Of a DNA stretch of 21,024 nucleotides, positions 1,016 to 18,888 are shown piece after piece; within the stretch, counting starts at the first letter, position 1, and every line of letters starts with the position of its first letter. This DNA comes from a virus. Location of the stretch: positions 1-21,024 of IMG/VR virus record IMGVR_UViG_3300010885_062190; one strand, written 5' to 3'. The notes under the pieces are model-generated. The model saw nothing but the letters and a program-made list of their open reading frames with translations, had not been told where the DNA came from and ran no database searches. Made by a program: the position numbers and the translations under genes.

Positions 1016-1390
1016 ATGCCCACATTCATTGGATTTAACACTATTGATCAGTTCAAGAAGTTTACTTTAACAGACTTTGAACTGGTCAAACGAGACCTCT
1101 CAAATGCACTTAATATACAGCAAGGTGAGTTACCTGGCCGACCCGGCTACGGCACAATAATCTGGAGTTTCTTATTTGAAAACCAATCCCCTGACACACA
1201 AGAAAATATCAAGGCCGAGCTGCAACGTGTAGTTGGAGGTGATCCTCGTCTATTCATTACTAGCCTGGTCCTATATCCGCAAGATAACGGTCTACGAGTA
1301 GAATTAGATGTACAATTAGTGGGCAGTTACACTTCAGAGAGTCTGGCATTATTTTTTGATGTGGAATCTCGTCGAGCCAGTTTTATCTAA
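1016..1390 (+). CDS. 25: Baseplate wedge subunit, gp25-like (GPW/gp25 family)
   Basis: This 124-residue protein matches the small wedge protein of contractile-tail phages; T4 gp25 is about 132 aa. Family features visible are the N-terminal segment FTLTDFELVKRDLSNALNIQ, then GELPGRPGYGTIIWSFLFE, which corresponds to the family block in which a Gly-Glu turn and an Arg-Pro-x-(Phe/Tyr)-Gly stretch precede a Trp and an acidic residue. After that come a helix (NIKAELQRVV) and a beta strand pair ending in the LDVQLVGS region. In the T4 family gp25 sits at the wedge-sheath interface and helps to nucleate the sheath; that role is family knowledge. The ATG at 1016 follows the preceding stop by 8 bp, and AGGA at 1001-1004, overlapping the end of the upstream gene, is a plausible but distant ribosome binding site. 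The next gene encodes the partner wedge protein gp6, which strengthens the call. Confidence 0.9.
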   Translation: MPTFIGFNTIDQFKKFTLTDFELVKRDLSNALNIQQGELPGRPGYGTIIWSFLFENQSPDTQENIKAELQRVVGGDPRLFITSLVLYPQDNGLRVELDVQLVGSYTSESLALFFDVESRRASFI

Positions 1391-1438: not shown

Positions 1439-4400
1439 ATGGCACAAACTGCACGACAAACAGCAATATTTGGAGTAGAAGATTGGAAACGCCTGTATCA
1501 AACATACAGAGAAGCCGACTTCCAAAGCTACGACTTTGAAACCTTACGTAAAAGTTTTGTAGATTATCTGCGTTTGTACTATCCAGAAACGTTCAACGAT
1601 TACATTGAATCGTCGGAATTTATTGCTATTCTGGACGTTATGGCCTTTATGGGTCAGTCACTGGCCTTCCGTAACGACTTAAACGCCCGAGAAAACTTCT
1701 TAGATACAGCCGAGCGTCGTGATTCTGTGGTACGCCTGGCCAATCTTGTCAGCTACACACCCAAGCGTAACCAAGCTGCACAAGGCTATATCAAAGTAAA
1801 TTCTGTTCAGACCACAGAAAGTATCACAGACTTCAACGGCGTTAACTTATCAAATGTCACCATCAACTGGAATGATCCCACTAATCCAAACTGGTTAGAA
1901 CAGTTTACCTACATTGTGAATGCCAGCTTGATCGATAGTCAAAAATTTGGCCGTCCGGGCAATAATGCTGTGTTACAAGGCATTCGAACCGACGAGTACA
2001 CCATCAATTTAGTACCAGGTTTCTTGCCTATTATTCCTTACTCATCTGTTGTTGATGGTATTAACATGCCGTTTGAAATTGTCAGCGGCACCAGTAGCGG
2101 TCGAGACTACATTTACGAACTGGCACCACAGCCCAGTGGTGCATTTAACGTGCTGTACCGCAACGACCAACTGGGTTTTGGATCAGGCAACACTGGCTTT
2201 TTCTTTTTGTTCAAGCAAGGCACTTTACAAAATCAAGATTTTAATTTAGCAGAAGCTATTCCCAATCGAGCAGTCAATATCAATATCGACGGCATCAACA
2301 ATCAAGATTATTGGTTGTACGAGCTTACCAACGTGGGAACTATTGCCAGCCAATGGAAATATGCAGAAAGCATCTATGCCGCAGCAGTTGAACAATTGGC
2401 ACCAAATCAACGTAAAATTTATTCTATAGCCAGTCGTGCCAATGATCAGATTACCTTGACATTTGGTGATGGTGTATTTGCAGAAACACCAGTTGGATTC
2501 TTCCGAACCTATGTACGTGCAAGTAACGGATTACGTTATATCATTAATCCAGAAGAAATGCAGTCTGTACAAATTCCCATCAGTTACATCAGCAGATTTG
2601 GTCGTTTAGAAACTATTACATTCACATGCGGGATTGCCAACCCTGTTAGTAATGCACAACCACGCGAAACAATTGAAGAAATTAAACAACGTGCTCCTGC
2701 ACGTTACTATACACAGAATCGTATGGTCAACGGCGAAGACTATAATCTTTTTCCGTTTACAAGATTTAATAGTATTATTAAAAGCAAATCAATTGTGCGT
2801 TCAAGTGTGGGTACCACACGGTATATTGATTTAAATGATCCCACTGGAAAATATAGTTCTACAAATATTTTTGCATCTGATGGCATGTTTTATGAAGAAA
2901 ATGTGTTGCCAACATTTAACTTTGATTGGGTAAGCACCAACGATATTGTAGATGTAATTGCTAACTCAGTTGAACCTACGCTGAGTTCTCGTGCAATGAC
3001 ACAGTTTTATTATGCTAATTTTCCGCGTCCTAATTTGTTAGTTATAAATTTAGCATGGAATCAAAGTACCACTGTGGTCAATGAAACATCTGGATACTTC
3101 TACAATATATTCAATAATGCACCTCAGTCAATAGGAAGCTATGCCAGCAACAATGCCAAGTATATTACACAAGGGTCGTTGATAAAATTTATTCCACCGA
3201 CTGGCTATTTCTTTAATGCAAACAATCAGCTTGTGGCCGGAGTACCAGTTCGTGCAGATGAAAAATTGGAAATTTGGGCAACTATAAGTGGTGTCATCTT
3301 GGACGGTACCAATTCTGGGTTAGGTAATTTATCCAACGGTATAGGTCCTGTTGTGGTCAACAACTTTGTACCAACAGGTGCTATTGCTCAAGAAGTAATA
3401 CCTAAATTTAATAATACTCTAACTACTGTACTGGAACAATCAATATTGCAACAAGTTGAATTGGTTAGAAATTTTGGGCTGGGTTATAATAATCTTACCA
3501 GCACCTGGTATCTCATCACCAGTACTAACCTGGCACAAGATGCACCATTCAGCCTACAGTATGCACAAAATGCACAAGGATTAGGTCTTGACGCTTCATG
3601 GTTGATACAGTTTCAAGCTATTCAAACCACAGGATCTTATACTGTGACTTCGCGTGGCCTAGATTATATTTTTGCCAGTGTAATAGAAACACGATTCTTC
3701 TTTGATGGCAGCGGAAAAGTTTATGACAGCAGAACTGGTTCAGTTATCAATGATTTTATTAAAATACTAAAAACTAATTCTAGACCAGATTCAAATTATC
3801 CGCTGTCTGCAGATGTAACCACAGATATTATTGCACAACCTGTGCAAAGTGACGGATTTGTAAATGACTATCAAGTAGTTGTTAGTTATCGTGACAGTGA
3901 CTCAGACGGTGTGGCAGACAATCCTGATTTCTTTGACGAAGTTGTAGCACCTTTAGTTAATCCCACTACAAAGTATGTATTTTTACAGCTGACAGTGGAT
4001 TTTAACAATACCGAAAATTATCTTCCAGTAGCAGCCGGAGTGGTTAATTCTTCTTATGCTACTAGTGACGCAATTGAATTAGTCAAAAGCGAATATGTTG
4101 ACGGACAAATTTTTTATGCATATCAGGAAGATGCATTTTATGAATTGGACGTAAATGTAACCAACGGAATAATACAAAGAACTCTGATTTCACGTACAGA
4201 CTTTGTCAGCAGAGTAGGACGTCAGAGTTTGTATTTCCAATACAGACACAATAGCCCATTGACTAATCTGATAGATCCCGGAGTGGTTAATATCATTGAT
4301 TCATATGTGGTCACACAAGAATACTATACTGCATATCAGAATTATGTAAAAGATACTACAGGAACTGTGCCCGAACCAGACCAGCCAACTGTTGATGAAC

Positions 4401-4906
4401 TCAATACTGCATATGCAGCATTAAACGATTACAAAATGATATCTGACAATTTAGTACTCAATAGCGTGGTATTTAAACCGTTATTTGGTGCAAAAGCAGC
4501 ACCAGAGTTACGTGCCACAATCAAAGTGGTACAAGCACAAAATACTACAGCCAGTGTCAGCGAAATAAAGAGCCTGGTAATTCAATATGTCAATACGTAT
4601 TTTACAATTGACAAATGGGATTTTGGTGATAGCTTTTTCTTCTCCGAGTTGTCGGCTTATCTACATCAGAATTTAGGATCAATTGTGAGTTCTGTTGTAT
4701 TAGTACCGCTGAATCCGCTTAAATCATTTGGTGATTTATATGAGATCAGATCTGCTGCCAACGAAATTTTTGTGAGTGCAGCTACGGTGGCCGATGTAGA
4801 AGTAATTACAGCACTAACACAAAGCAATATTCGCAGTGCAACATCTGTGTCAGGTCTGTATCCTAATAGTATCAGTCAAGGTACTTCATTTGGGAGTAGT
4901 TACTAA
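1439..4906 (+). CDS. 6: Baseplate wedge subunit, gp6-like, enlarged (1155 aa)
   Basis: This is the gp6-type wedge protein, which in T4 forms the continuous inner ring that links wedges around the hub. The N-terminal block, residues about 30-112 (YYPETFNDYIESSEF, LDVMAFMGQSLAFRNDLNA, then LANLVSYTPKR), is the segment typical of T4-like gp6. A baseplate-J-like strand FGDG is at 342-345, and a conserved GEDYNLFP segment lies near 430. The C-terminal region, about 1060-1130 (DSFFFSELSAYLHQNLGSI and SFGDLYEIRSAANEIFV), also fits. T4 gp6 is 660 aa, so this protein is nearly twice that length; the extra material lies mainly between about 550 and 1040. An Asp-rich loop at 819-833 (DSDSDGVADNPDFFD) resembles a calcium-binding thrombospondin type 3 or EF-hand-like loop. 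ATG 1439 has only a weak GAG at 1431-1433. The stop TAA shares one base with the next ATG (TAATG), indicating translational coupling. Confidence 0.88.
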   Translation: MAQTARQTAIFGVEDWKRLYQTYREADFQSYDFETLRKSFVDYLRLYYPETFNDYIESSEFIAILDVMAFMGQSLAFRNDLNARENFLDTAERRDSVVRLANLVSYTPKRNQAAQGYIKVNSVQTTESITDFNGVNLSNVTINWNDPTNPNWLEQFTYIVNASLIDSQKFGRPGNNAVLQGIRTDEYTINLVPGFLPIIPYSSVVDGINMPFEIVSGTSSGRDYIYELAPQPSGAFNVLYRNDQLGFGSGNTGFFFLFKQGTLQNQDFNLAEAIPNRAVNINIDGINNQDYWLYELTNVGTIASQWKYAESIYAAAVEQLAPNQRKIYSIASRANDQITLTFGDGVFAETPVGFFRTYVRASNGLRYIINPEEMQSVQIPISYISRFGRLETITFTCGIANPVSNAQPRETIEEIKQRAPARYYTQNRMVNGEDYNLFPFTRFNSIIKSKSIVRSSVGTTRYIDLNDPTGKYSSTNIFASDGMFYEENVLPTFNFDWVSTNDIVDVIANSVEPTLSSRAMTQFYYANFPRPNLLVINLAWNQSTTVVNETSGYFYNIFNNAPQSIGSYASNNAKYITQGSLIKFIPPTGYFFNANNQLVAGVPVRADEKLEIWATISGVILDGTNSGLGNLSNGIGPVVVNNFVPTGAIAQEVIPKFNNTLTTVLEQSILQQVELVRNFGLGYNNLTSTWYLITSTNLAQDAPFSLQYAQNAQGLGLDASWLIQFQAIQTTGSYTVTSRGLDYIFASVIETRFFFDGSGKVYDSRTGSVINDFIKILKTNSRPDSNYPLSADVTTDIIAQPVQSDGFVNDYQVVVSYRDSDSDGVADNPDFFDEVVAPLVNPTTKYVFLQLTVDFNNTENYLPVAAGVVNSSYATSDAIELVKSEYVDGQIFYAYQEDAFYELDVNVTNGIIQRTLISRTDFVSRVGRQSLYFQYRHNSPLTNLIDPGVVNIIDSYVVTQEYYTAYQNYVKDTTGTVPEPDQPTVDELNTAYAALNDYKMISDNLVLNSVVFKPLFGAKAAPELRATIKVVQAQNTTASVSEIKSLVIQYVNTYFTIDKWDFGDSFFFSELSAYLHQNLGSIVSSVVLVPLNPLKSFGDLYEIRSAANEIFVSAATVADVEVITALTQSNIRSATSVSGLYPNSISQGTSFGSSY

Positions 4907-7900
4907 TGGCTACACGTCGCACCGTAGATCTATTACCTGAAATTTTCCGCACCGATACTAATAAGAAATTTTTAGGTGCAACATTAGATCAGCTAACACA
5001 AGAGCCTAATTTTAAACGCACACAAGGATATATAGGAAGCAAAGTTGGGCCCGGTGTCAATCCTGCAGATTACTACATAGTTGAGTCATCAGCTGTACGT
5101 AACGATTATCAGTTAGACCCTGGTGTGGTTTTTTTAAAACCAGACACTAACACAGCAGTAGATGCTATAACATATCCTGGCATCATTGATGCACTTGCTC
5201 TTAAAGGTGCCAATACTCAGAAACAAGATCGCTTATTTGAAAGCGAATATTACTCGTGGGATCCTTTTTCGGATCTTGACAAGTTTACCAACTATAGTCA
5301 ATACTATTGGTTGGCAGCCGGCCCAACATCAGTGGATGTATCTGGTACAGACGTTCCTTCTACCGACTCATGGAATATTAATCGTGTCACTAACGCATAC
5401 GAATTCAGTGACGTGGCAGGAAACAATCCTGTTATTACATTGATGCGTGGCGGCAATTATGAATTTGTAGTAAATCAGACTGGTTACAATTTCTGGATAC
5501 AAGCAGCTCCTGGGGTTGAAGGTCGCATGCCTGCTACTCCTAATATCAGCAGCAGAGATGTGCTGGGCGTTGTCAACAACGGCGAAGATCAAGGCACAGT
5601 AACTTTCAATGTGCCATTGAATACGGCACAAGATTTTTACTATACCTTAACTACTTTGCCAATGCCGCTGGGCTATCAAAACGGCACAGTTGATCTAATT
5701 ACTGGGTTAAAATTTAATCAACTTAATAACGTATACGAAAGTGAATTTTTATCTCAGTGCCCTGGTGGTATTGACGGTATTACAAACTTACGAAATCGCA
5801 CTATAGTATTCACTAACACTATCACTGATGCTCAAGACGGTGGCTGGCAAGTGTCAACTCAGTTTGATCCGTTACTGCAATTGCCCGACAACAATGGACT
5901 GAGTGGAAGTTTTGATACTACCACTTTTGATCAGACAACTGACATTGATAGTCAGGCACAGCGATATAGTGTATGGCAAATCCAATATATCAATGACGAA
6001 GCCGGCAATCCGTTCATGCGATTAAACAGTATCGCTCCAGTACCAAATCTCAATAAATTTACTATCAAGTTTGGTGCTCAAAATGCCAGTACCCAATGGT
6101 ATAAAGATGCGTCTGGATATTTCGAACAGATTCCGTTGTTAACTGCGGTGTTAGATACACTTTGGTATCAAGATAGTGTAAACCCTTTGATATTTGGACA
6201 GATTAAATTAGTTAATCCAGGCGAAGAATTAATTATTGATGCCAACGAAATTATTGGTGCAAAAAATTACACCAGCCCAAATGGGGTAGTTCTAACCAAT
6301 GGATTAAAAATACAATTTCGCGGTGCTGTTGAACCACCGCAGTTTCAGAATTTAGAATACTATGTTGAAGGTGTAGGAACAGGTCCAGGTATTGCTGCCA
6401 GAGTAGGATTTATCGACGGCGAAGCATATTTTGGTACGTTCCATACTGTGAATGGTCAAAAGATAACAGGACTGGCCAATACAACAACATTCCAACAGTA
6501 CATCTACGACACCATAGAAGAAAGTCTGTTAAACACTGGAACAGGTGGCCCGGCAGGAGCACCTCTGCCCAATACACCAGTATTAGGTGCCACTGCAGGC
6601 AATGGTATTAAACTTGTTCCAGTGTCTGAATTTGTTACGCCAGAAACATATACTCAAAGCAGCAGTATTCCTTTTGACAGCACCAGCTACGATTCTTCTC
6701 CGTATGATGCCAGTTTGAATGCACCAGAAATTCCAGACTATATTACTATTAATCGTGCCAGTCACGATCGCAATGCATGGACACGTAGCAATCGCTGGTT
6801 CCATATTGATGTAATCCGTGCCACTTCTGCATATAACAATCAGATCTTGGTACTTGATAATGAACTACGTGCCAAACGACCCATCATTGAATTTAGAGCC
6901 AATCTTGATTTGTACAATTTTGGTACACAAGGAAAAGATCCAGTAAACATCATTGACTTCGGTGCCACAGATGCCCTTAGCAACATAAATGGTCAATTGG
7001 GCTATAGTATCGACGGTTATACATTTATCAACGGCAGCAGAGTAATATTTGCCGCTGATTTAGATCCACAGGTACGCAATCAAATTTATGAAGTGCAATT
7101 TATTGATCCTGACAATTCAGGTACCTTCATAATAGATCTAATACCAGCTGCTGACAGTCTGGTATTGTCTAAGCAGACAGTAGTATGTCTAAGTGGCATA
7201 GTACAACAAGGAAAAAGCTATTGGTTTGACGGAGTGTCATGGGCGTTAGCACAACAAAAAACTCAAGTAAATCAGCCTCCGCTGTTTGATATTTTTGACA
7301 GCGCAGGTATCAGCTTTTCTAATAGATTAACATACCCCAGCACAACTTTTGTCGGAAGTAAACTATTTGGATATGCACTTGGATCAACACAGATTACTGA
7401 TTCTGTGTTGGGATTTCCGCTGAAGTTTCTTAATATTAATAACGTAGGCGACATAGTTTTTGAAAACTATTTGTACACTGACTCCTTTATATATGTCCGC
7501 GACAGCGTCAGTTATCAAGAGCAAGTAAGCATTGGATTTGCTCGCCAGTACACGGATCGGATTTCTTTTAGCAATCTCATTGGATGGCAACCAGCAGCAG
7601 AAGAAAATCGCAGCCGCCAAGTATTCAAATTCACCTACAATGGTTTGCCACTGGTAATTGATATTCCTGTTGACACCAATACTGCATTTGCTCCGCTACA
7701 ACTTTTTCAGGAAGGTGTATTCATTGACCCCACTGGATATGTGTACGAAATAGTCAATAGTACCACTGTGATTACTCTGCTTGAATCCGTTGTGAATCCA
7801 ATTCTGATTGGCACAATAATTGAAGTACAAATAATCAGTAATTTTGCCAGTACCACTGGATTTTACGAAATACCCTTGAACTTGGAAAACAACCCACTAA

Positions 7901-10900
7901 ACGAAAATAGTGGAACATTTACCTTGGGTACCATCCGGACTCATTACGAAACCATTGGACAAAATCTTAGAACAATTCAAGGACCCATCGTGGGCGCCAA
8001 CAACACTCGCGACCTTGGAGATATTTTACGATATGGTGAACTAATAGTTCAAAACTCTGCACCTCTTGCGCTAACAGGTGTGTTTCTTAGAGAAAAACAA
8101 TTTGAACTATTCAATGCCATTGAATTCAACAGCAGAGAATATGCCAAGTACAAAGCTTTTATGTTGGATCTTGTAACCGATGGCGACTTTGAAAATCTGT
8201 CAGCCAATCAAGTATTGGATACAGTACTTCAAGAAATTAGTCTTGGCCGTAGCAACATAAGTCCATTCTACTGGTCTGACATGATTCCGTCGGGCGAAAC
8301 CTATACAGAAAACACCTACACCTATACTGTTATCAGTACTCCCACATTCGACACGTTGCAAACTTACGACTTTACTGCATCAAATTATTTGGGATTATTG
8401 GTATACTTAAACGATGTTTTGTTAACCATCAACTACGATTATACTGTTGCTGTTGACGAGCCTAATTTAACTATTACAGTACCGTTAGCAGTTGGCGATA
8501 CCATAACTATACGTGAATACCCAAGAACATACGGAAGTTATGTTCCAAACACTCCAACCAAGATGGGATTGTACCCGGCATACTTGCCGGCTATATATGT
8601 GGACAACAGCTATATTACTCCCAAGTTGGTAGTAAGAGGACACGACGGTTCAATTACTCTGGCATTTAACGACATTAGAGATCAGGTGTTGTTAGAATTT
8701 GAAAAACGAATCTTTAACAATCTGAAAATAGTTTCACCAATTCCGTTAGTTGTAACAGATGTTGTGCCAGGCCAATTCAGAACTACTGATTATGACCTTG
8801 GCCAAATAAACAATATACTAAGTCAAGACTTTTTAAGCTGGGTAGGCTGGAATAAACTTGATTATACAGAACAGTATTATAGAACTACTGACCCGTTTAC
8901 CTACAACTACAGTCAAAGCAGTGATCGGCTGACAGGTGAACCTGTACCTGCCGGTGCATGGAGAGGACTCTATAACTATTTCTACGACACTTATACCCCT
9001 GACACAACACCTTGGGAGATGTTAGGTTTAATGCAGAAACCCACCTGGTGGGAAGTAGAATATGGTCCTGCACCATACACCAGCGGCAACACAGTTTTGT
9101 GGGATGACTTGGCAGCAGGTCTTATTAAAGATCCTCTTGATACCAGAATTGATCCACGGTATATACGCCCTGAATTATCATCAGTAATACCGGTTGGATC
9201 AGAAGGCGAGCTGTTAGATCCTTTGGTTGCTGTGATTGGTAATTACGATGCAACCAGTTTCCGTCGTAGCTGGACTTTTGGCGACGATGGTCCTGTAGAA
9301 AATACCTGGCGTACAAGCAGTGCTTGGCCATTTGCAGCAATGCGATTACTGGCGTTAACTAAGCCAGCCAAGTTCTTTAGCTTATTCTCTGATAGAGATC
9401 GCTATGTGTACAATCAGCCGCTGGAACAATTCCTATGGGACGAACGTTATCGTCTAAATGCCAACGAGCTAACACCATTATACGGAAACGGTGCAAGCAA
9501 AGCCAGTTACCTGGATTGGATTATTGATTACAATTGTCAGTTGGGTATAAACAGCACTGACAATCTCACTGTGACATTAAACAATATTGATGTCAGACTC
9601 TGCTGGAGAGTAGCAGGTTTTACTGATAAGAATTATCTCAAAATCTACACAGAAAGATCTACGCCTGGCAGCACTAATGCTGGATTGATACTGCCAGATG
9701 AAAGTTATTCGTTATTGCTTTACAAAGATCAGCCATTTGAACAAGTGACCTACAGTTCTGTTATTGTGCAAAAAGTTGATACTGGTTGGGCAGTACTGGG
9801 TTACAGTACGCAGAGACCATTTTTTGAAATATTGGTGTCACGTACTGCCGGAAGAAATACAATTATTTCTGCTGCAGAGACGCAGGTCAGAGTTGCAACA
9901 CAACATACCAATAATGTAGTTCAGGTTCCTTACGGATACGTGTTTACAAATTTGGCCAGTGTGTGTGACTTTTTGGTCAGCTACGGTGCGCTACTTCAAA
10001 AGCAAGGTTTCCTTTTTGAATCAAGAGAGAATGGTTATATCTTAGATTGGTTCCAGATGTGTCAAGAATTTATATACTGGAGTCAGCAGGGTTGGGCAGT
10101 TGGATCTATCATAAACTTAAACCCGGCTGCTACCCGCATATCAATTTCTCGTCCGCAAGCAATTGTAGATAGCATTTTGACATATTCGCCGGATGACATT
10201 ATTCTAAATCAGAATCGCCAGGCACTGCCGATAGGTGATTTAGTAATTGATCGTATTGACAACTTATTCCGCGTGTCAACACTCACAAACAATACCATAA
10301 ACTTCTTAAACCTAAGGTTTACCGCATACGAACACATTGTTATCTTGGACAATCGCAGCATTTTTGCGGATCTTATCTATGACAAGATAACTGGCGCACG
10401 ACAGAGTCGAGTTTTAGTGTCCGGTTGGGTTACCAACGATTGGACTGGATTAGTTAACGCACCTGGATTTGTACTAAATCAGGACAACATAATTGAGTGG
10501 TCGCCAAATCGTAAATATGCCAAGGGCGAAATTGTTTTATTCAAGAACGAGTATTGGTCGTCGAGCACAATTATTCAGCCAAGTCAAGAGTTTAACTATA
10601 ATCTCTGGATCAAGAGTGATTACAATCAAATACAAAAAGGACTATTGTCCAATGCTGCCAACTCAAGCGACCAACTGGCAGCAGCATACAGCGTGTACAA
10701 TGCCAATCTTGAACAAGAAGTTAACTTATTCAGCTACGGTCTAATTGGATTCCGTCCAAGACAATACATGCAGGCATTGAATTTGGATGATGTAAGTCAA
10801 GTCAACTTATATCAACAGTTCTTAGGCACAAAAGGTACTTTACAATCTGCCGAATTGTTCAGTCTGGCTAATCTTGGTAAGGAAACAGCCACATATGATA

Positions 10901-13900
10901 TCAATGAATACTGGGCAGTTTTACGCAGTACATATGGTGCCACTGCCAGCCAGAGCTTTATTGATTTACGATTAAATGAAGCATTATTGCACAGTGATCC
11001 TTGCTTGGTTCAAGTGGTATTACCGCAAGAAGAATCATCTGCTGACCAGGCCATACTACTACAAGATGTTTGGAGATCCAGTGTAAAACTCACATCCACC
11101 GACATATTCCCGACTACCACTTTGTTGCCCACTGATGTTGGGTTACCGTCTGCTGGTTACGTTAATTTTGACGATGTTGATATAAATGTATTTGACTTAG
11201 AAACTCTGCAACTGGTTAGTTCTCAACTGAGTCCAACTGCCATTGGAGTAGGAACCACTATATGGGTTGCCAAGATAAACGAGTATGAGTGGAATGTATA
11301 TCGTGCGTCGCTGGTACCGGGCAGCATAACATCGGTCAGCAACAATCTCAACGGCCGAGCACTGGTACAATTTACCAAACCACACGGATTGGTAGTGGGT
11401 GATATTTTAATAATCAAATTCTTTGATGCTGCTGTAGACGGAATATATCGTGTACAGTTTATTTCTGGAATAACTTCGTTATTGATTGATTTTGTATTTG
11501 TTGGCACACAAACAGCATATACAGGCGTCGGAGTTGGATTTACTCTTGAATCACTACGTGTTGCCCAAGCAGCCGACATTGTGAACTTACCGTATGCACG
11601 ACCTCTTTTCCCTGGTATTAAAATCTGGGTTGACAATAACGGTGCCGGGCTATGGGAAGTTTTGGAAAAAACAGAACCCTTTACAGCATCAATTGATATT
11701 GATCCAGAAACAACTGTTGAAAATTCAAGATTTGGTGCAAGCATAAGTCAAGGATTACAAAATCTTAGTGCTCTTGTTGGAGCTCCGGGATACAATACCA
11801 CCGGAGCTGTGTACACATATGTTAAAACAGAACAAGATGTTTACGCACAGAATTCTATTTTAGAACTTGGTACCACAGATGCAGTAGGTTATGGTAATGC
11901 AACAGATATGGGCAACCAGGCCTGGGCCGTTATTGGCGCAAGCGCCAGTATGAATAATGCAGGATATGCAGCGGTTATATATAGAAATCCTGCCAGCAAC
12001 GCCTTCCAGCAGTGGCAATTACTGTTAATTGACCCGGCAGCAGCAGTAACTCCTACTGATGAATTTGGTTATTCTGTAACAATGAGCCTGGATGAACGCT
12101 GGCTTTATGTGGGCGCACCAGGTGGCAATCGTGTTTATGCTTACGGCCGCGTAGATTATCAACCACAGTCTGTAGAGTATTATGCCACCGGAACAGAAAC
12201 TTTATTCAATTACAGTGATTATATTGTTGTTGACACAGGTGATCAACTGGTAGTTGCACTGGAAGGTGTTACTCTAACTTATGGAGTAGACTATATAACC
12301 AATGGCGTGTATATAGTATTAACAACACCACCAACCGCAGGGCTAAAAGTCACAATCGCAAGACGTAGTACGGTATTACTACTAGGAGACGGTGTAACAA
12401 ATACATTTGACTTGTCTGACATTTATCCTGCTACTCTTGCTGTCGGTGATGACATAGGCACTTCAATCAGCGTCTATATTGATGATTCTCTACAACGACT
12501 AAAATTAGATTATGACTATGCAGCAGATAGTTCACATAATTTGGTTTTCACCACAGCACCTGCTGCCGGTACTGTGATTTCTGTTCGCGCAGAATCATAC
12601 TATGCATTGGTAGATACAATTACTGTCGGTGGGCTTGCTTCAACAGATCAATTTGGGCACAGTGTTACAACCACAACAAACGGACGTCAGTTGATGGTAG
12701 GATGTCCTGTATCAACTTATACAGATCCTGTCACAGGCGAAGTGTCCACTCAAGCAGGTTCAGTTTATGTATTTGACCGATCAGTACAAAATTTCCAAAT
12801 AACTGACACCAGCGTAGTATCGTATACTACCGAATTGGCATTAATCGAACCTACTCAAGTTGAACTAAACGGCGTATTCCTATTAAATCAAGCAGGTACC
12901 ATTGGCGGAACATATTCAATATCTTCCAACACAGTTACACTAGATACTGCTATCAATATTGGCGATACCTTAACAATTGAAACCAACCAATTTAACTTGG
13001 TACAGACAATTTACTCTGCTAACCCAGCTGCCAATGCCAAATTTGGTTATGTAGTTGATCAATGTGTGAATGATTGTAGTTTATATGTTGGTGCACCATT
13101 TGCTAATGCACCTGCTATCCAATCTGGACAGGTAGAATTTAATTTAAATCAAGCACGAGTTTATGGAACTATATCTAGTACTGTTGCTAATCCTGTACTG
13201 ACTCCGGGCGATTTTATCAGAGTTAACAGTTACTTTGTAGAAGTGACAGGAACAACTGTTGAACAATTGGCCGCAGATATAAATGCTGCCAGTGTACCTA
13301 ATGCACAAGCGGCTGTCACTAATAATCTTGAAATAATCGCAGACGGTGCAACCACTGTATTTGACGTGAATACAATATATTCAGCTGCCGATTCATACAC
13401 CGTACTGGTACTAATTAACGATGTAGAACAAATAGAAGGGGTCAACTACACTTATAATAATACTACTGAACAAATAACATTTGTTGTAGCACCTTTTGCG
13501 TATAGTGTTATAGTGGTGGTGTCTGGCAGATTAACTATATCAGCTAAAAATGTACAGGCAGCGCAGGCACTTAATAAAGTACAGGTACTGCCCGGAACAG
13601 GCACACTATTTGCAGATCTTGGCTGGCCAATTTATGTACAACTACAGACAATTGTAGCACCAGTACAACAAGACTTTGCAAACTTTGGACAAGAGTTGTT
13701 TATCAGCGAAAACACCACTGCACTATTAGTGGGTGCACCAAACGGGTCCTTGATAGAACTTACAACATTTGATGTGAACGCTGTTACTAAAACCAGCACC
13801 ACGTTTGATTCAAACAGTACCGTTTTCTTTGACACAGTACTGCAAAGCGGAGTAGTATATTCTTACGATTTCCTTCCAGCAGCCAACGCAACTGTTACCA

Positions 13901-16900
13901 ATCACGGGCAGTTTGTATTTGGTCAGCAATTATATGATGACCAGGCACAAACATCTGCACAATTTGGTGCAGCAATAGATTATACAACTGGAACATTGCT
14001 AATAGGATCGCCTGGCACAGATTTTAACGACAGTCAAGACAACAGTGGCAGCGTAGTTTCCTACAGAAATATTAATTTGAAACCAGCATGGAGTGTGCTT
14101 AGACTACAGCAGCCAGTGGTAGATGTTTCACTGCTGAACACCGTTTACATGTATGATCGTGTTGCTGGAAATACCAAACAATATTTTGATTATTTCAATC
14201 CATTGCAAGGACGACTATTGGGTGTTGTTGCTCAAAATATCAATTTCACAGGCGCAATTGATCCAGCTGAATACAACGTAGGTGCTGTTAACAATTTTGG
14301 TGGTGCTTGGCGTCAAGCACGAGTTGGACAAATATGGTGGGATACTACAAGTGTGAGATTCATTGATCCCAATCAGAACGATATTACCTACGCCAGCCGT
14401 CGATGGGGACAGATTTTCCCAGGCAGCACAATAGATGTTTACCAGTGGGTTTCAAGCTCAGTACCGCCGATTCAATACACTGGCCCAGGCGTACCGTTTA
14501 GTAACAGTAGATATTCAGTCAGCAATTCATTGAATGAACAAGGCATTGTGTCGTTGGAATACTATTTCTGGGTATCAGGTATCAACACAGTGAATACCTT
14601 TGCCAAGAAAACTCTGAGCACAACCATTATTGCACAATATATTGAAAGCCCACGCAGCAGCGGCATTAGCTATATTGCACCAATTAATGCAAACACCATT
14701 GCAATCTACAACGGAGTAGATTATATTTCTGCTCAGGATACAATTTTACAAGTCGGTTACGATCAGATTCTAAACGACAATGCAGTACACGTAGAATATC
14801 AACTGGTGGCTCAAGATCGAGCAGATGGCTTCTTGACCGACGTACTTTATAACAAGCTGCAGGACAGCTTCTGTGGATCAGATGTGGTAGGAAATCCTGT
14901 GCCAGATCCTTTCTTGAGTGTGAGCGATCAATTTGGTACGCAGGCACGCCCACGTCAGAGTATGTTTGTTAACCGGTTCTTGGCATTGAAAAATTATTTG
15001 ACTCGTGCCAATAATATTTTGAATCAGTTCCCTATATCCGAGACTCGTCGATTCTCACTGTTAAACAGCGAAGAATCAGAACCGTCACGTTCTTCTGGTG
15101 CGTGGGATCTGAGAGTGGCCAACAATGAAGAATTGTCTTATCAGGACCTGGCTGCGGTGCCAATTGGTTACAAGTATCTTGTGGCAAATAATTCTGCTTA
15201 CAATGGTCTATGGACCATCTACGAAGTAATAGCAGGGTTTGCGCCAGGGTCAAAAGTATTAGAATTGCTACGAGTCCAGAACTATGATACCAAACTATAC
15301 TGGAGTTATATCGATTGGTATGCACCGGGTTACGATCCTTTAACAAGAATACTGGCTGAAGTGCCGGTGTATTCTTCGTTGGCAACGCTTGCTGTTCCTG
15401 TTGGCAGCGTGGTTAAAGTAACTGCAAACGGCCAAGGCAAATGGGAATTGTATCAATTCTCTAATGATAATTCCTGGGCCCGTGTGGGATTACAAAATGG
15501 TACAATAGAATTTTCTAATAAACTATGGGACTATAGTGTTGGCCGTTACGGATTTGATGTAGAAGTATTTGACGCACAATTTTATGACCAAGAGCCCATT
15601 ATTGAAACACGTAAAATAATTCAAGCAATCAATCAAGAATTGTTTATTGATGATTTATTAATTGAAAGAAACCGTTGTTTGATACTGATGTTTAATTACA
15701 TCTTGAGCGAGCAACAAGCACCAAGCTGGTTAACTAAAACCAGTTTAATTGACGTTGACCATATTATACGCCAACTGGTTCCGTATCAAATTTATCGCCG
15801 AGACAACCAAGATTTTGTGTTAGATTATATACAAGAAGTCAAGCCGTACCATGTACAGATCCGCGAATTCAATTTGATATACAATGGATTTGATCAGTAC
15901 AACGGTACTGTGAACGACTTTGATTTACCTGCATTCTATGATAACGAACAGAATTTGTTTATTAGTCCAATCTTGGACGACACTGATCCACCAGTCAGCA
16001 CAACCAGTAGTCTACCAAGTACTTCTCCAATTTGGCAAATATTGCCGTGGAACCAATGGTATCAAAATTATCTATTAGAAATTGATTCTGTTACAGTGGT
16101 TGATGGTGGTGTTGGATATACTGTGCCGCCTGTTGTTGAAGTAACCGGCGATGCACTGATTATTGCTGTAATGACTGCACGAGTGAACAGTGCTGGATCT
16201 GTTATTGCAGTTGATATAGTGGACCCAGGTGTTGGTTATTTGACCACCCCGGTTATTACATTTGTAGGCGGCAACGGTACTGGCGCTCGCGCAGTGGCAA
16301 TAACAGGAAATCAATTAGTACGTAATATCCTAACTACTATAAAGTACGATCGTTATGAATATCAATCAAGCATAGTTGACTGGACACCCAACGAAAATTA
16401 CGACAACGGTACCTTAGTAAGATACGATAATCGAGTTTGGTCAGCTAATTCGGATGATAGCTCCAGCATTGAAAGTACTGCATTTGATACTGATCAATGG
16501 ACTTTAGTGCCGGCAGCCGATCTGACAGGCGTAGATCGAACCATGGGATATTATACTCCCGGAGTAAACGAAACAGGCCTAGATCTTGCACAATTAATTT
16601 CGGGCGTTGATTATCCAGGAGTACAAGTTACTGCACCAGGCTTTAATCAGAATACAGGTTTTGATGTTGGCAATTTTGATGTTAACCCATTTGATAACAT
16701 TGCTTATGGTCCAGAAGGCCGTCCAACTTACGATCCTGCCATACTTGATGCCATATATGCAAGTGAATTCACAGACCCGTATCTTGGCACACTACCCAGT
16801 TCAATCAATGTTGCCGGCGGTGCATTTGTGGACCAATACTCAAGTCATGCCCCGGAAGAACTGGTACCAGGTGCTATATTTGATACTCTGGACATGCGTG

Positions 16901-18888
16901 TTTTTACAACACCCGGTGCTGATTGGCAAGGCAACGGGCACGGATTCCCGGAGTCAACCCGCAAATATGTGTATACTGTTGATACCACCGAATTTGATTT
17001 TGCAGGATTATTACCGTATCCAATTACTTTAACAGTTTGGAACTTGTCGATAGGAGTCCAATTAATACCAGACACTCACTATACAACAGATTGGGTAAAT
17101 CAAACTGTGACAGTGACCGCAGGTGCATATGAAAATGATACTATAGTTATAACTGTATACGCACTCGGTGGCGGCAACCAGCAATATACCAATTCCTATA
17201 ATGGGTCTGACGTTGGTAATAGTTTGATTATTCCTGTTGAATACAGTTTGATTAATGAAATAGTTGTATTTGTTAACGGACAGGTAGTTACTAACTTTAC
17301 ATCGGCACAATATGGTACATATGATACTAGAATATCATTTAGTAACACTTATGGTGCCACTGATTTAGTTACTGTTACTGCAATGGGTATTCAGACTCCG
17401 CAGTACTCATGGAGTGCGCCGCAGACACAATATTTTGTAGCTGACGGTAGTTTGGCATTTACTTTGACAAACAGCCTTGAGGGAACTAACCCTGCCAATA
17501 TTATTGTAGAAAAGAATGGTGTTCGTGCCAGACCGTCTGCTGGTATTGAATATATTGACGATGGATCAAGTATACAATATTATTGTCCTACACACGTTGG
17601 ATATAGTCCTGCTTTGGTAGCCAATAACGATGTGTCTGTGTATATCAACAATGTACCGCAGATATTGGGTGTAGATTTTGTACTGGATCCATGGAATGGA
17701 GTGTCTGACGCTAGAACAGTTACATTGTCTTCGATGCCAGCTGCTGGAGCTAAGATTTTAATATCAGTGCGGACTGATGCACAATATTATCTGTCAGGTA
17801 ACACATTAATTTGGAATAATTCAGGATCGTTGATTCCAAGTCCAGGAGATATTGTTTCAGTTACTACTTGGAACGACACTGCCGAGCAAGATATATTGAC
17901 CCAGGTCTTTGTGGGTCCAATGTCCGAAGGCGCCACAGTTGCACAGGGTTATGACAGTACTACCTTCGACGAAGCGTTAGTAAGCAATACTTCTGGATCT
18001 TTTGATTTCAGTACAGGTGTACAGGTGTTAACAAATAAATTTGACACTGGACGTATTATAACTGACCCTTCGAGATTAGCAGTTACGCTGGATGGGTTTT
18101 GCTTGTTTAACGGCAATGGTTACACAATCGACGGCACATTCATTACTATTACAGGTTCTGTCATAAGTGCTGCCCAGGTTGTAGTAATTACCAGCATGAC
18201 TCAAAGTACAGTACCGACTGCGATTGCTTTCCGAATTTTCCAGGACATGCGTAGCCTACAAAGCACTTACCGTATTACCAATTCAACCACCACTGTACTG
18301 TCACAACTGTTGTCTCAAATTGGCGATATAATTTATGTGGAAGATGCTGCTGCACTTAGCGAGCCAAATCTCCCACAAGGTATATTTGGGCTGATTACCA
18401 TCAATGGTGAACGGATTGCTTATCGCTATCGTGACGTAGATAATAACACAGTCAGCGGTCTGCGTAGAGGAACTGCCGGAACAGCGGCATCTGATCATGC
18501 CGTGGGTGCAGCAGTTTACGATATTGGACTTGGTAATTTATTACCTGCCGAATACCAAAACTATATAGTATCTGACGAATTTTTATCCAATGGGGTGACA
18601 ACCATTTATACAGCCCCGGATATCAGTGTTGTCGGACTTGATTCAACGGAACTCACAGATGCAGTACAGGTATATGTAGGAGGATTATTACAATCCGGCG
18701 GCTATGAAATATTAACAGCAGATCCAGTGAGCATAGAATTTGCAGTTGCTCCTACTATTAATTATCAGATTACTATTTTGGTACTAAGAGGCGAGAGTTG
18801 GTACACACCCGGAGCAGGCACTGCCAGTGACGGCGTTCCTTTGCAAGAGCAAGAAACTTTAGCAGCAAGGTTTATACGTGGTAATTAA
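4906..18888 (+). CDS. Giant modular virion protein (4660 aa), probably baseplate or tail, at the gene 7 position
   Basis: One open frame encodes about 500 kDa. GGGAG at 4892-4896 is a good ribosome binding site nine bases before the ATG. I recognise segments recurrent in large marine-phage structural proteins: N-terminus TVDLLPEIFRTDTNKKF; RLFESEYYSWDPF near 110; PDYITINRASHDRNAWTRSN near 610; MGLYPAYLPAIYVDNSY near 1220; PTWWEVEYGPAPYT near 1385; AWPFAAMRLLALTKPAKFF near 1475; GQIWWDTTSVRF near 3145; a YIQEVKPYHVQIREF segment ending at 3655; and FVDQYSSHAPEELVPG from 3974. CBM5/12-like modules start at 1865 and 3826. FG-GAP-like propeller repeats span 2276-3060, with sandwich modules inserted. 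A double GxGY motif lies at 3726-3790, and more sandwiches follow from 4022 to the C-terminus (LAARFIRGN). I see no catalytic motif, signal peptide or membrane segment. Its place directly after gene 6 matches T4 gene 7, but homology to T4 gp7 cannot be shown by eye. Outer wedge or adhesion apparatus is my inference. Confidence 0.72.
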   Translation: MATRRTVDLLPEIFRTDTNKKFLGATLDQLTQEPNFKRTQGYIGSKVGPGVNPADYYIVESSAVRNDYQLDPGVVFLKPDTNTAVDAITYPGIIDALALKGANTQKQDRLFESEYYSWDPFSDLDKFTNYSQYYWLAAGPTSVDVSGTDVPSTDSWNINRVTNAYEFSDVAGNNPVITLMRGGNYEFVVNQTGYNFWIQAAPGVEGRMPATPNISSRDVLGVVNNGEDQGTVTFNVPLNTAQDFYYTLTTLPMPLGYQNGTVDLITGLKFNQLNNVYESEFLSQCPGGIDGITNLRNRTIVFTNTITDAQDGGWQVSTQFDPLLQLPDNNGLSGSFDTTTFDQTTDIDSQAQRYSVWQIQYINDEAGNPFMRLNSIAPVPNLNKFTIKFGAQNASTQWYKDASGYFEQIPLLTAVLDTLWYQDSVNPLIFGQIKLVNPGEELIIDANEIIGAKNYTSPNGVVLTNGLKIQFRGAVEPPQFQNLEYYVEGVGTGPGIAARVGFIDGEAYFGTFHTVNGQKITGLANTTTFQQYIYDTIEESLLNTGTGGPAGAPLPNTPVLGATAGNGIKLVPVSEFVTPETYTQSSSIPFDSTSYDSSPYDASLNAPEIPDYITINRASHDRNAWTRSNRWFHIDVIRATSAYNNQILVLDNELRAKRPIIEFRANLDLYNFGTQGKDPVNIIDFGATDALSNINGQLGYSIDGYTFINGSRVIFAADLDPQVRNQIYEVQFIDPDNSGTFIIDLIPAADSLVLSKQTVVCLSGIVQQGKSYWFDGVSWALAQQKTQVNQPPLFDIFDSAGISFSNRLTYPSTTFVGSKLFGYALGSTQITDSVLGFPLKFLNINNVGDIVFENYLYTDSFIYVRDSVSYQEQVSIGFARQYTDRISFSNLIGWQPAAEENRSRQVFKFTYNGLPLVIDIPVDTNTAFAPLQLFQEGVFIDPTGYVYEIVNSTTVITLLESVVNPILIGTIIEVQIISNFASTTGFYEIPLNLENNPLNENSGTFTLGTIRTHYETIGQNLRTIQGPIVGANNTRDLGDILRYGELIVQNSAPLALTGVFLREKQFELFNAIEFNSREYAKYKAFMLDLVTDGDFENLSANQVLDTVLQEISLGRSNISPFYWSDMIPSGETYTENTYTYTVISTPTFDTLQTYDFTASNYLGLLVYLNDVLLTINYDYTVAVDEPNLTITVPLAVGDTITIREYPRTYGSYVPNTPTKMGLYPAYLPAIYVDNSYITPKLVVRGHDGSITLAFNDIRDQVLLEFEKRIFNNLKIVSPIPLVVTDVVPGQFRTTDYDLGQINNILSQDFLSWVGWNKLDYTEQYYRTTDPFTYNYSQSSDRLTGEPVPAGAWRGLYNYFYDTYTPDTTPWEMLGLMQKPTWWEVEYGPAPYTSGNTVLWDDLAAGLIKDPLDTRIDPRYIRPELSSVIPVGSEGELLDPLVAVIGNYDATSFRRSWTFGDDGPVENTWRTSSAWPFAAMRLLALTKPAKFFSLFSDRDRYVYNQPLEQFLWDERYRLNANELTPLYGNGASKASYLDWIIDYNCQLGINSTDNLTVTLNNIDVRLCWRVAGFTDKNYLKIYTERSTPGSTNAGLILPDESYSLLLYKDQPFEQVTYSSVIVQKVDTGWAVLGYSTQRPFFEILVSRTAGRNTIISAAETQVRVATQHTNNVVQVPYGYVFTNLASVCDFLVSYGALLQKQGFLFESRENGYILDWFQMCQEFIYWSQQGWAVGSIINLNPAATRISISRPQAIVDSILTYSPDDIILNQNRQALPIGDLVIDRIDNLFRVSTLTNNTINFLNLRFTAYEHIVILDNRSIFADLIYDKITGARQSRVLVSGWVTNDWTGLVNAPGFVLNQDNIIEWSPNRKYAKGEIVLFKNEYWSSSTIIQPSQEFNYNLWIKSDYNQIQKGLLSNAANSSDQLAAAYSVYNANLEQEVNLFSYGLIGFRPRQYMQALNLDDVSQVNLYQQFLGTKGTLQSAELFSLANLGKETATYDINEYWAVLRSTYGATASQSFIDLRLNEALLHSDPCLVQVVLPQEESSADQAILLQDVWRSSVKLTSTDIFPTTTLLPTDVGLPSAGYVNFDDVDINVFDLETLQLVSSQLSPTAIGVGTTIWVAKINEYEWNVYRASLVPGSITSVSNNLNGRALVQFTKPHGLVVGDILIIKFFDAAVDGIYRVQFISGITSLLIDFVFVGTQTAYTGVGVGFTLESLRVAQAADIVNLPYARPLFPGIKIWVDNNGAGLWEVLEKTEPFTASIDIDPETTVENSRFGASISQGLQNLSALVGAPGYNTTGAVYTYVKTEQDVYAQNSILELGTTDAVGYGNATDMGNQAWAVIGASASMNNAGYAAVIYRNPASNAFQQWQLLLIDPAAAVTPTDEFGYSVTMSLDERWLYVGAPGGNRVYAYGRVDYQPQSVEYYATGTETLFNYSDYIVVDTGDQLVVALEGVTLTYGVDYITNGVYIVLTTPPTAGLKVTIARRSTVLLLGDGVTNTFDLSDIYPATLAVGDDIGTSISVYIDDSLQRLKLDYDYAADSSHNLVFTTAPAAGTVISVRAESYYALVDTITVGGLASTDQFGHSVTTTTNGRQLMVGCPVSTYTDPVTGEVSTQAGSVYVFDRSVQNFQITDTSVVSYTTELALIEPTQVELNGVFLLNQAGTIGGTYSISSNTVTLDTAINIGDTLTIETNQFNLVQTIYSANPAANAKFGYVVDQCVNDCSLYVGAPFANAPAIQSGQVEFNLNQARVYGTISSTVANPVLTPGDFIRVNSYFVEVTGTTVEQLAADINAASVPNAQAAVTNNLEIIADGATTVFDVNTIYSAADSYTVLVLINDVEQIEGVNYTYNNTTEQITFVVAPFAYSVIVVVSGRLTISAKNVQAAQALNKVQVLPGTGTLFADLGWPIYVQLQTIVAPVQQDFANFGQELFISENTTALLVGAPNGSLIELTTFDVNAVTKTSTTFDSNSTVFFDTVLQSGVVYSYDFLPAANATVTNHGQFVFGQQLYDDQAQTSAQFGAAIDYTTGTLLIGSPGTDFNDSQDNSGSVVSYRNINLKPAWSVLRLQQPVVDVSLLNTVYMYDRVAGNTKQYFDYFNPLQGRLLGVVAQNINFTGAIDPAEYNVGAVNNFGGAWRQARVGQIWWDTTSVRFIDPNQNDITYASRRWGQIFPGSTIDVYQWVSSSVPPIQYTGPGVPFSNSRYSVSNSLNEQGIVSLEYYFWVSGINTVNTFAKKTLSTTIIAQYIESPRSSGISYIAPINANTIAIYNGVDYISAQDTILQVGYDQILNDNAVHVEYQLVAQDRADGFLTDVLYNKLQDSFCGSDVVGNPVPDPFLSVSDQFGTQARPRQSMFVNRFLALKNYLTRANNILNQFPISETRRFSLLNSEESEPSRSSGAWDLRVANNEELSYQDLAAVPIGYKYLVANNSAYNGLWTIYEVIAGFAPGSKVLELLRVQNYDTKLYWSYIDWYAPGYDPLTRILAEVPVYSSLATLAVPVGSVVKVTANGQGKWELYQFSNDNSWARVGLQNGTIEFSNKLWDYSVGRYGFDVEVFDAQFYDQEPIIETRKIIQAINQELFIDDLLIERNRCLILMFNYILSEQQAPSWLTKTSLIDVDHIIRQLVPYQIYRRDNQDFVLDYIQEVKPYHVQIREFNLIYNGFDQYNGTVNDFDLPAFYDNEQNLFISPILDDTDPPVSTTSSLPSTSPIWQILPWNQWYQNYLLEIDSVTVVDGGVGYTVPPVVEVTGDALIIAVMTARVNSAGSVIAVDIVDPGVGYLTTPVITFVGGNGTGARAVAITGNQLVRNILTTIKYDRYEYQSSIVDWTPNENYDNGTLVRYDNRVWSANSDDSSSIESTAFDTDQWTLVPAADLTGVDRTMGYYTPGVNETGLDLAQLISGVDYPGVQVTAPGFNQNTGFDVGNFDVNPFDNIAYGPEGRPTYDPAILDAIYASEFTDPYLGTLPSSINVAGGAFVDQYSSHAPEELVPGAIFDTLDMRVFTTPGADWQGNGHGFPESTRKYVYTVDTTEFDFAGLLPYPITLTVWNLSIGVQLIPDTHYTTDWVNQTVTVTAGAYENDTIVITVYALGGGNQQYTNSYNGSDVGNSLIIPVEYSLINEIVVFVNGQVVTNFTSAQYGTYDTRISFSNTYGATDLVTVTAMGIQTPQYSWSAPQTQYFVADGSLAFTLTNSLEGTNPANIIVEKNGVRARPSAGIEYIDDGSSIQYYCPTHVGYSPALVANNDVSVYINNVPQILGVDFVLDPWNGVSDARTVTLSSMPAAGAKILISVRTDAQYYLSGNTLIWNNSGSLIPSPGDIVSVTTWNDTAEQDILTQVFVGPMSEGATVAQGYDSTTFDEALVSNTSGSFDFSTGVQVLTNKFDTGRIITDPSRLAVTLDGFCLFNGNGYTIDGTFITITGSVISAAQVVVITSMTQSTVPTAIAFRIFQDMRSLQSTYRITNSTTTVLSQLLSQIGDIIYVEDAAALSEPNLPQGIFGLITINGERIAYRYRDVDNNTVSGLRRGTAGTAASDHAVGAAVYDIGLGNLLPAEYQNYIVSDEFLSNGVTTIYTAPDISVVGLDSTELTDAVQVYVGGLLQSGGYEILTADPVSIEFAVAPTINYQITILVLRGESWYTPGAGTASDGVPLQEQETLAARFIRGN
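10498..10600 (+). other. CBM5/12-like module 1 within the giant protein
   Basis: Residues 1865-1898 read W-S-P-N-R-x-Y-x-x-G-E-I-V-x-F, then EYW, and close with NLWIKSD. This spacing of Trp, Tyr, Gly, Val and a second aromatic follows the short carbohydrate-binding fold (CBM5/12, chitin-binding type). Similar short modules are common in phage tail proteins, where they may bind cell-surface glycans or only add a structural fold. A second copy is at 16381-16509. Glycan binding is inference. Confidence 0.5.
11728..14070 (+). repeat. FG-GAP-like (integrin-type) propeller repeats in the giant protein
   Basis: Six copies of a repeat with Phe-Gly, about 16 residues, then Gly-Ala-Pro or a variant occur in frame. 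Phe-Gly starts at residues 2276, 2387, 2583, 2713, 2927 and 3020. The matching Gly-x-Pro starts at 2292 (GAPG), 2403 (GAPG), 2599 (GCP), 2729 (GAP), 2943 (GAP) and 3034 (GSPG). Each is followed by a strand of the G-x-V-Y-x-Y kind (GAVYTYV, RVYAYG, GSVYVFD, GVVYSYD, GSVVSYR). A degenerate seventh copy (AWAVIGASASMNNAG) lies near 2331-2350. This is the pattern of FG-GAP repeats forming a seven-bladed beta-propeller. Blades are unusually far apart (56-214 residues) because other modules are inserted. Only the last copy has an Asp-rich loop after GSPG that could bind a metal. Confidence 0.7.
12169..13530 (+). repeat. Beta-sandwich modules inserted between propeller repeats
   Basis: At least four modules share the layout: a strand with V-x-V/L-x-x-x-x-V-x-Q/T, then a Gly-x-Asp-Tyr turn, then a strand ending T-T-x-P-x-x-G-x-x-I/V-x-V. 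Clear copies are near residues 2422-2485 (TYGVDYITN, TTPPTAGLKVTI), 2489-2565 (LKLDYDYAADSS, TTAPAAGTVISV) and 2812-2874 (IEGVNYTYNN). A divergent copy lies near 2640-2700 (VELNGVFLLNQ, INIGDTLTIETN). They resemble the small sandwich domains repeated in phage tail fibres. They fall in the gaps between FG-GAP copies, so they probably project from the propeller surface. Confidence 0.55.
16078..16290 (+). repeat. Two-copy GxGY beta repeat in the giant protein
   Basis: Residues about 3726-3790 contain two copies of the pattern V-x-x-x-G-x-G-Y-x-x-x-P-x-V/I (VVDGGVGYTVPPVVEV and IVDPGVGYLTTPVITF), about 40 residues apart. The second ends in a Gly-rich GGNGTGARAVA turn. Short GxGY repeats of this kind occur in phage tail and fibre proteins; no enzyme function is suggested. 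The segment lies between the KPYHVQIREF block and the second CBM5/12-like module. Confidence 0.5.
16381..16509 (+). other. CBM5/12-like module 2 within the giant protein
   Basis: Starting at Trp 3826, the protein reads W-T-P-N-E-N-Y-D-N-G-T-L-V-R-Y and has a second Trp at 3845, then FDTDQWTLVP. The order W-x-P-N-x-x-Y-x-x-G-x-x-V-x-Y/F-x-x-x-x-W matches module 1 at 10498 almost position for position, although the two lie nearly 2000 residues apart. A short CBM5/12-type fold is likely; sugar binding is only an inference. Confidence 0.5.
16969..18800 (+). repeat. C-terminal cluster of beta-sandwich modules in the giant protein
   Basis: Residues about 4022-4630 hold at least four more modules of the type inserted in the propeller. 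They are near 4022-4085 (LIPDTHYTTDW), 4100-4165 (EIVVFVNGQVV), 4174-4290 (VSVYINNVPQILGVDF, then SSMPAAGAKILISV) and 4558-4630 (VQVYVGGLLQSGGYEIL). Between the last two is a conserved piece near 4500-4526 (TINGERIAYRYRDVD, SGLRRGTAGT) that I remember from other marine phage giant proteins. The protein ends in a Gly-rich tail and LAARFIRGN. The cluster looks like a chain of beta domains, as in a fibre or spike. Confidence 0.5.

Follow-up and report, generated by a model that had tools for sequence, protein, structure and literature searches.

A predicted seven-bladed FG-GAP propeller of the integrin type, embedded in a giant wedge-type protein, marks one clade of uncultured jumbo phages

The virus record IMGVR_UViG_3300010885_062190 was analysed over a window of 21,024 bases, which is the whole record, and in this window a gp25-like and a gp6-like baseplate wedge gene lie directly upstream of a gene for a giant wedge-type protein of 4660 amino acids, P0002, with other open reading frames (ORFs) flanking the three. 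An earlier note on this DNA, which was made from the sequence alone, had described six clear FG-GAP repeats and one degenerate copy within P0002 and had proposed that they form a propeller of the integrin type, with about seven blades, inside a phage baseplate-type protein. Structure prediction now indicates a closed FG-GAP propeller of seven blades in this segment, with the fold of integrin alpha chains, and the distribution of this propeller among relatives marks one clade of the T4-related jumbo-phage group, consisting of uncultured giant phages. The location had been recognised correctly, only the borders at 11728-14070 were slightly narrow, as the propeller extends approximately from 11674 to 14106. 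Its blades and inserts are the following:

11674..11865, plus strand: blade 1, with FG at 11731.
11866..12030, plus strand: blade 2, with the degenerate YG...IGAS repeat at 11890.
12031..12165, plus strand: blade 3, strands 1-3, with FG at 12064; strand 4 follows insert A at 12571-12621.
12166..12570, plus strand: insert A, 135 amino acids separating strands 3 and 4 of blade 3; contains two beta modules in tandem, which resemble the T7 tail anchor and DUF2460.
12622..12798, plus strand: blade 4, strands 1-3, with FG at 12652; strand 4 at 12967-13011.
12799..12966, plus strand: insert B, 56 amino acids separating strands 3 and 4 of blade 4; without a family match.
13012..13152, plus strand: blade 5, strands 1-3, with FG at 13042 and two near-invariant cysteines; strand 4 at 13633-13653.
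13153..13632, plus strand: insert C, 160 amino acids separating strands 3 and 4 of blade 5; forms a further domain, in which one beta module is nested.
13654..13932, plus strand: blade 6, with FG at 13684 and a conserved TTFD...STxF loop of low model confidence between strands 2 and 3 (13744-13848).
13933..14106, plus strand: blade 7, with FG at 13963; the best Pfam FG-GAP_2 stretch.

The six clear repeats of the form FG...(V/I)G(A/S/C)P are found at P0002 residues 2276, 2387, 2583, 2713, 2927 and 3020, and the degenerate copy at residue 2329 represents the seventh unit, being the second in order; translation and motif scan thereby agree with the originally proposed count. The scan found 8 overlapping motif starts in the segment, as compared to a mean of 0.14 and a maximum of 3 in 1000 shuffles. 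The Pfam model FG-GAP_2 scored 36.1 bits with the whole ORF and 51.7 bits with the segment, at a cut-off of 23, and it matched 16 of 16 aligned relatives, the window included. The other FG-GAP model, PF01839, did not match the window record at E 0.001. Small beta modules are abundant in P0002, as are Gly, Thr and Val, and one may ask whether such a composition simply generates repeats by chance, without any real propeller. The shuffles, the Pfam score above the cut-off, and the conservation of the repeats in 61 diverse sequences argue against this, and the closed ring of the structure model and a fold match with a Z score near 40 refute it, so that we attribute practically no probability to a chance origin.

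For structure modeling by AlphaFold (AF2), 61 sequences were aligned (L041 was excluded from the set A2 because of a stop codon, and L006 was used for L035, as both are the identical contig). The ring is closed in the model, with a mean predicted local distance difference test score (pLDDT) of 89.4 and a predicted template modeling score (pTM) of 0.88, and the strand list contains seven four-stranded blades; the open ring that would have contradicted the earlier note was not obtained. When the model was compared with the 962 solved chains that were ranked highest by Foldseek, every entry among the 50 matches listed was an integrin alpha chain (Z 37.8-41.0 over 346-372 residues at 2.4-2.9 Å), including alphaM (9t3y) and alpha5 (4wk2), and the best of those listed was chain A of the alphaM structure, 9t3y_A, with Z 41.0 and 2.6 Å over 356 aligned residues. 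Foldseek against the PDB also placed integrins on top, at E 1e-9, and ranked a tail protein of cyanophage A4 29th. Among the listed matches to predicted viral proteins, the nearest was a protein of an uncultured Caudovirales phage (E 4e-30), and giant-virus FG-GAP proteins, the Atu_ph07 'hemagglutinin' and an S-TIM5 virion protein were also found. On the sequence level, the A2 profile reached integrin alphaM among solved structures with no better than E 0.012. Unlike integrin alpha chains, the P0002 propeller lacks the DxDxDGxxD calcium cages: a loose pattern for these cages was present in only 3 of the 61 sequences and missing in 58, the window among them. We therefore regard the propeller as integrin-like in its fold and do not claim membership in the integrins. 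The inserts also differ. AlphaM-type integrins carry an inserted I domain, which lies between blades 2 and 3, whereas the inserts of P0002 are placed within blades 3, 4 and 5, and the whole propeller is part of a phage wedge protein. At a place that can hold a calcium cage in integrins, the 1-2 loop of blade 5 carries a CxxxC motif, whose two cysteines (local positions 471 and 475; window 13063-13077) are kept in 59 and 58 of the 61 sequences, and this pair possibly forms a disulfide or a metal site. The blade-6 loop contains a TTFDxxxTxFDxxSTxF motif in 46 of the 61 sequences, in a region where the model is uncertain, and FD repeats akin to it occur elsewhere in P0002, around residues 590, 2145, 3880 and 4300.

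Two conserved stretches of P0002 flank the variable site that holds the propeller:

6703..11640, plus strand: upstream conserved core, approximately residues 600-2245, common to the giant proteins of PA5oct, Atu_ph07, SCTP-2, GAP32, 121Q and Vibrio 2.275.O.
14101..15945, plus strand: downstream conserved core, approximately residues 3066-3680.

A search based on the propeller gave 430 stretches that matched the patterns, 327 of which encoded a relative, and the best 80 were kept; the contigs that carry propeller-bearing relatives reach 352,754 bases. Searches with the cores contributed 80 further loci, and 65 of these contained both cores and so had a readable site. Together with 6 cultured records this made 71 segments, from which L124 (a 490,380-base contig with the values of Atu_ph07) and L126 (with the values of L125) were dropped. 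Of the remaining 69 site segments, 48 contained repeats that the blade profile separated clearly from the rest (E 3.8e-7 for the weakest positive, as compared to 0.12 for the best negative and 0.21 for the best shuffled control), and Pfam detected FG-GAP repeats in 46. In the six cultured relatives, both cores align and 184-1525 amino acids lie between them, without a propeller at the site. A core tree was calculated from 167 candidate loci and the window, thinned by similarity to 85 rows, and in this tree, whose root is not settled, the 64 rows with a propeller are separated from the 21 rows without by a single branch (SH-aLRT, the Shimodaira–Hasegawa-like approximate likelihood ratio test, 100). 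The history of the propeller is therefore a single gain or a single loss, after which all sampled clade members retained it. Of the 64 propeller rows, 40 came from the core search; the other 24, to which the window belongs, are propeller-bearing by construction, as they were found via the propeller itself. When the window propeller and three more distant ones were used for tblastn searches in 50,697 phage records, no wedge propeller was found; three queries remained without a match, and the one from L144 gave a single weak match in Sinorhizobium phage Phosso. At the same site, Atu_ph07 (L022) has some 1500 amino acids of other sequence with a weak match to a tail-sheath domain, and the site may therefore take up different cargo in different lineages.

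The remaining features of the locus place the propeller in its baseplate context:

1016..1390, plus strand: gp25-like baseplate wedge protein (PF04965, 32.6 bits, cut-off 27.2).
1439..4906, plus strand: gp6-like baseplate wedge protein (phrog_10646, E 4e-285; phrog_219, E 1e-26).
4906..18888, plus strand: giant wedge-type protein P0002 (phrog_10938 'virion structural protein', E 3.5e-295).
8299..8523, plus strand: XD2-like beta module in the upstream core, residues 1132-1206; a homologue of those in the propeller inserts, with a fold match to TSP4 (7rfv).
11305..11550, plus strand: small beta-barrel just upstream of the propeller, residues 2134-2215; by fold match similar to E1-FCCH and endosialidase barrels.

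The phrog_10938 profile covers the core of P0002, which assigns it to these giant virion structural proteins and, together with the gp25-like and gp6-like neighbours, agrees with the baseplate-type protein that had been assumed. Matches to the core were present in 59 of the 50,697 phage records, and among the 40 matches listed the genomes have sizes of 284-490 kb (e.g., PA5oct, Atu_ph07, SCTP-2, GAP32 and 121Q). The giant of the Rak2-like phages, PA5oct and Atu_ph07 is the same protein as P0002, with both cores and the place after gp6. The PA5oct homologue follows a gp6-like gene in the same order, and the PA5oct record marks it with ESI-MS/MS (electrospray ionization tandem mass spectrometry). 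The position after the gp6-like gene corresponds to that of gp7 in the T4 gene order. We do not claim gp7 homology, since the hhalign probabilities did not exceed 1.3 when seven pieces of the giant were compared with nine T4 baseplate proteins, each as a single sequence; gp7 was also not among the matches listed for the core model. This model, which covers residues 1075-2258, had a pLDDT of 81 and a pTM of 0.56 and gave matches to small domains only, and the search of the whole P0002 against sequences of solved structures yielded no match at E up to 1. The barrel at residues 2134-2215 matched the E1 FCCH barrel 7sol_A with Z 10.4 and phage endosialidase chains with Z 8.2-8.8 (8.8 for phi92).

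The inserts are informative with respect to the function of the propeller. According to the strand order of the model (assigned by DSSP), inserts A, B and C occupy the gaps between strands 3 and 4 of three consecutive blades, and they therefore exit the predicted ring on one face. In integrin terms, the strand 3-4 side is the lower face, opposite the ligand face. A profile of the insert modules recognised strong copies in P0002 at residues 2493-2566, 2811-2874, 1144-1203 and 4241-4287, the first two of which belonged to the training set of the profile, and weaker copies at 2426-2484, 4375-4430 and 4564-4624. Of 19 module sequences, 8 were matched at E up to 0.1 (best 2e-5) by Phage_T7_tail, the family of the N-terminal anchor by which the T7 tail fibre is docked, and 7 were matched by DUF2460. 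The related module in the upstream core, which was folded within residues 1075-2258, matched residues 187-250 of the CBA120 tailspike TSP4 (7rfv) with Z 8.7 and 1.9 Å over 64 residues, and the cyanophage A4 chain 9k09_U with Z 8.4. In the consulted part of the TSP4 literature, the domain that follows the linker at 179-188 and ends before residue 250 is described as XD2, a jelly-roll module, and the XD2 domains of TSP4 and T4 gp10 are described to bind other trimeric tail proteins (PMC8825819). In its predicted structure, the core module of P0002 thus has the XD2 fold of TSP4 and gp10, but P0002 repeats the module within one wedge polypeptide and nests related copies in the blades. When insert A alone was compared with PDB sequences, only weak matches to ferric uptake regulators were obtained, which we take as chance.

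On this basis, we consider it somewhat probable that the closed propeller, gained or lost once, serves as a rigid structural platform inside the wedge polypeptide, from which three inserts would project on one face at blades 3, 4 and 5, and that modules of the XD2 and T7-anchor type in these inserts would dock trimeric tail fibres, spikes or neighbouring parts of the wedge. By analogy with XD2 and the T7 anchor, docking would most likely be the task of the inserts, and the face that looks at the cell is likewise something that we infer. Several observations weigh against this reading. In the window, only the second module of insert A and the module of insert C are strong copies, the first module of insert A being weak (8.4 bits) and insert B having no family match. 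The Phage_T7_tail and DUF2460 matches in the window stay below the curated cut-offs, and PF03906 reaches 20.1 bits with a window module at a curated cut-off of 25.2. The likeness of the inserted modules to XD2 depends on their sequence kinship with the core module, and neither the hhalign comparisons nor the matches listed for the core model connected P0002 with gp7 or the other T4 baseplate proteins that were tried.

The earlier note had also raised the idea of a ligand hub or of a platform that binds a receptor or glycans. The former is supported by our data, because two of the three inserts carry modules resembling fibre anchors and because CBM5/12 carbohydrate-binding modules are matched at the site in one third of the more distant propeller-bearing members. 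As carbohydrate modules are present in a part of the clade, direct binding of a host receptor or glycan by the propeller is possible and has to be taken seriously as an alternative: the host surface would then be contacted directly by the blade-6 loop, by carbohydrate modules nested in the propeller or by its open face. FG-GAP propellers bind ligands in integrins, and CBM_5_12 was found by Pfam in 16 of the 69 site segments, all of them among the 48 with a propeller and none among the 21 without. In addition, a CBM-like motif was detected by a regular expression within insert C of 7 of the 61 sequences. For the set of 69 we used the Pfam count only, because the regular expression is insensitive and found 0 of 69 where Pfam finds 16. 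The inserts of the window, in contrast, have no CBM match. In P0002 itself, a CBM_5_12 match is found outside the propeller at residues 3826-3847 (window 16381-16446), with 23.2 bits just below the curated cut-off of 26.2. Lengths are variable, as would suit a receptor-binding head, with 126-300 amino acids for insert A across the 61 sequences and up to 191 for the blade-6 loop, and conservation is lower in the propeller than in the cores: the identity to nine diverse relatives is 51% for the propeller, 63% and 66% for the cores, and lowest, 41%, for insert A. With the exception of the near-identical L001, these relatives have 63-78% identity in the gp6-like protein and 56-89% in the two downstream proteins. 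The loops of the propeller, however, do not exceed short connections elsewhere in variability and lack a hot spot of variation, and the conservation of insert C and of the long blade-6 loop is similar to that of the strands. Lower conservation than in the cores, without hypervariability or hot spots in the loops, speaks more for a conserved partner than for a strain-specific receptor, and on the sequence level the pattern would fit an exposed part with a steady partner. Since, moreover, the integrin calcium-cage pattern is missing in 58 of 61 sequences and the propeller is retained rather than swapped in all 64 clade members, we regard a direct receptor- or glycan-binding head as rather unlikely.

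The moderate and even conservation could also indicate a purely architectural spacer that fills the space from wedge to wedge and widens the baseplate. The in-line insertion between conserved stretches and the near-invariant cysteine pair in blade 5 would be in line with this, and the propeller-less relatives live with 165-1506 amino acids of other sequence at the site. Yet the inserts carry modules of the anchor type, and their length differs by whole modules, which is more than a spacer needs, so that this explanation appears quite improbable to us. A further reading, to which we give slightly less credence still, is that the wedge polypeptide itself is the sensor, with the propeller and its nested docking modules, joined in relatives by sugar-binding ones, binding a docked fibre or the host surface and signaling directly into the wedge core. 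If true, recognition and the baseplate switch would be united in one protein, and a phage would have reached the outside-in logic of integrins.

The docking platform has a precedent, as the nozzle protein of phage SU10 is described, in the consulted part of the study, as a seven-bladed propeller with immunoglobulin-like domains inserted between blades and as the dock of short tail fibres (PMC9509320). Unlike P0002, the SU10/T7-type nozzle is hexameric and belongs to a short-tailed phage, and FG-GAP signals were missing from the four SU10 tail proteins that were examined. The same repeats are found in stand-alone phage propellers, with blade-profile E values of 1.7e-32 for S-TIM5 (AEZ65754), 1e-10 for Atu_ph07 gp320 and 5e-10 for Vibrio phage nt-1, but these proteins and gp213 of phage AP-J-162 have about 375-407 amino acids, lack large inserts and are separate from the wedge giant. 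In the accessed portion of the report on the Sinorhizobium phage AP-J-162, gp213 appears as a stand-alone integrin-like 'hemagglutinin' similar to human integrin 3VI3, and a structural protein of 4455 amino acids (ORF 58) is listed next to wedge proteins (PMC11242549). Separate FG-GAP propeller genes are present in Atu_ph07 (gp320, L107), where the gene adjoins genes annotated as tail sheath, and in Phosso (L110). In the Phosso genome (PV764938, L111), 47 of all 55 FG-GAP_2 matches fall into two neighbouring giant ORFs on the minus strand (48338-57826 and 57900-68978; 3162 and 3692 amino acids, hypothetical), which so contain several propellers each, and the wedge giant (a 4555-amino-acid frame at 204-207 kb) holds none. 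In those sections of the respective papers that were consulted, Kelch-type propeller proteins are mentioned for phage CBB (PMC5259590) and a RaK2 baseplate protein is named as a likely secondary receptor binder (PMC10253068), and a term search of a 2026 jumbo-phage review did not find the words propeller or integrin (PMC13282480). In the parts of the literature covered by our search, we recognised no description of an FG-GAP propeller in a baseplate protein. Stand-alone FG-GAP phage proteins are thus already published, whereas the wedge-embedded, clade-defining form looks new.

The finding shows how a very large baseplate protein is built, with a conserved wedge core and a cargo site that holds a propeller of predicted integrin fold in a whole clade. 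It adds a well-supported case of an integrin-type propeller in a contractile machine, and it gives a testable place at which to seek the fibre attachment or host contact of uncultured giant phages.

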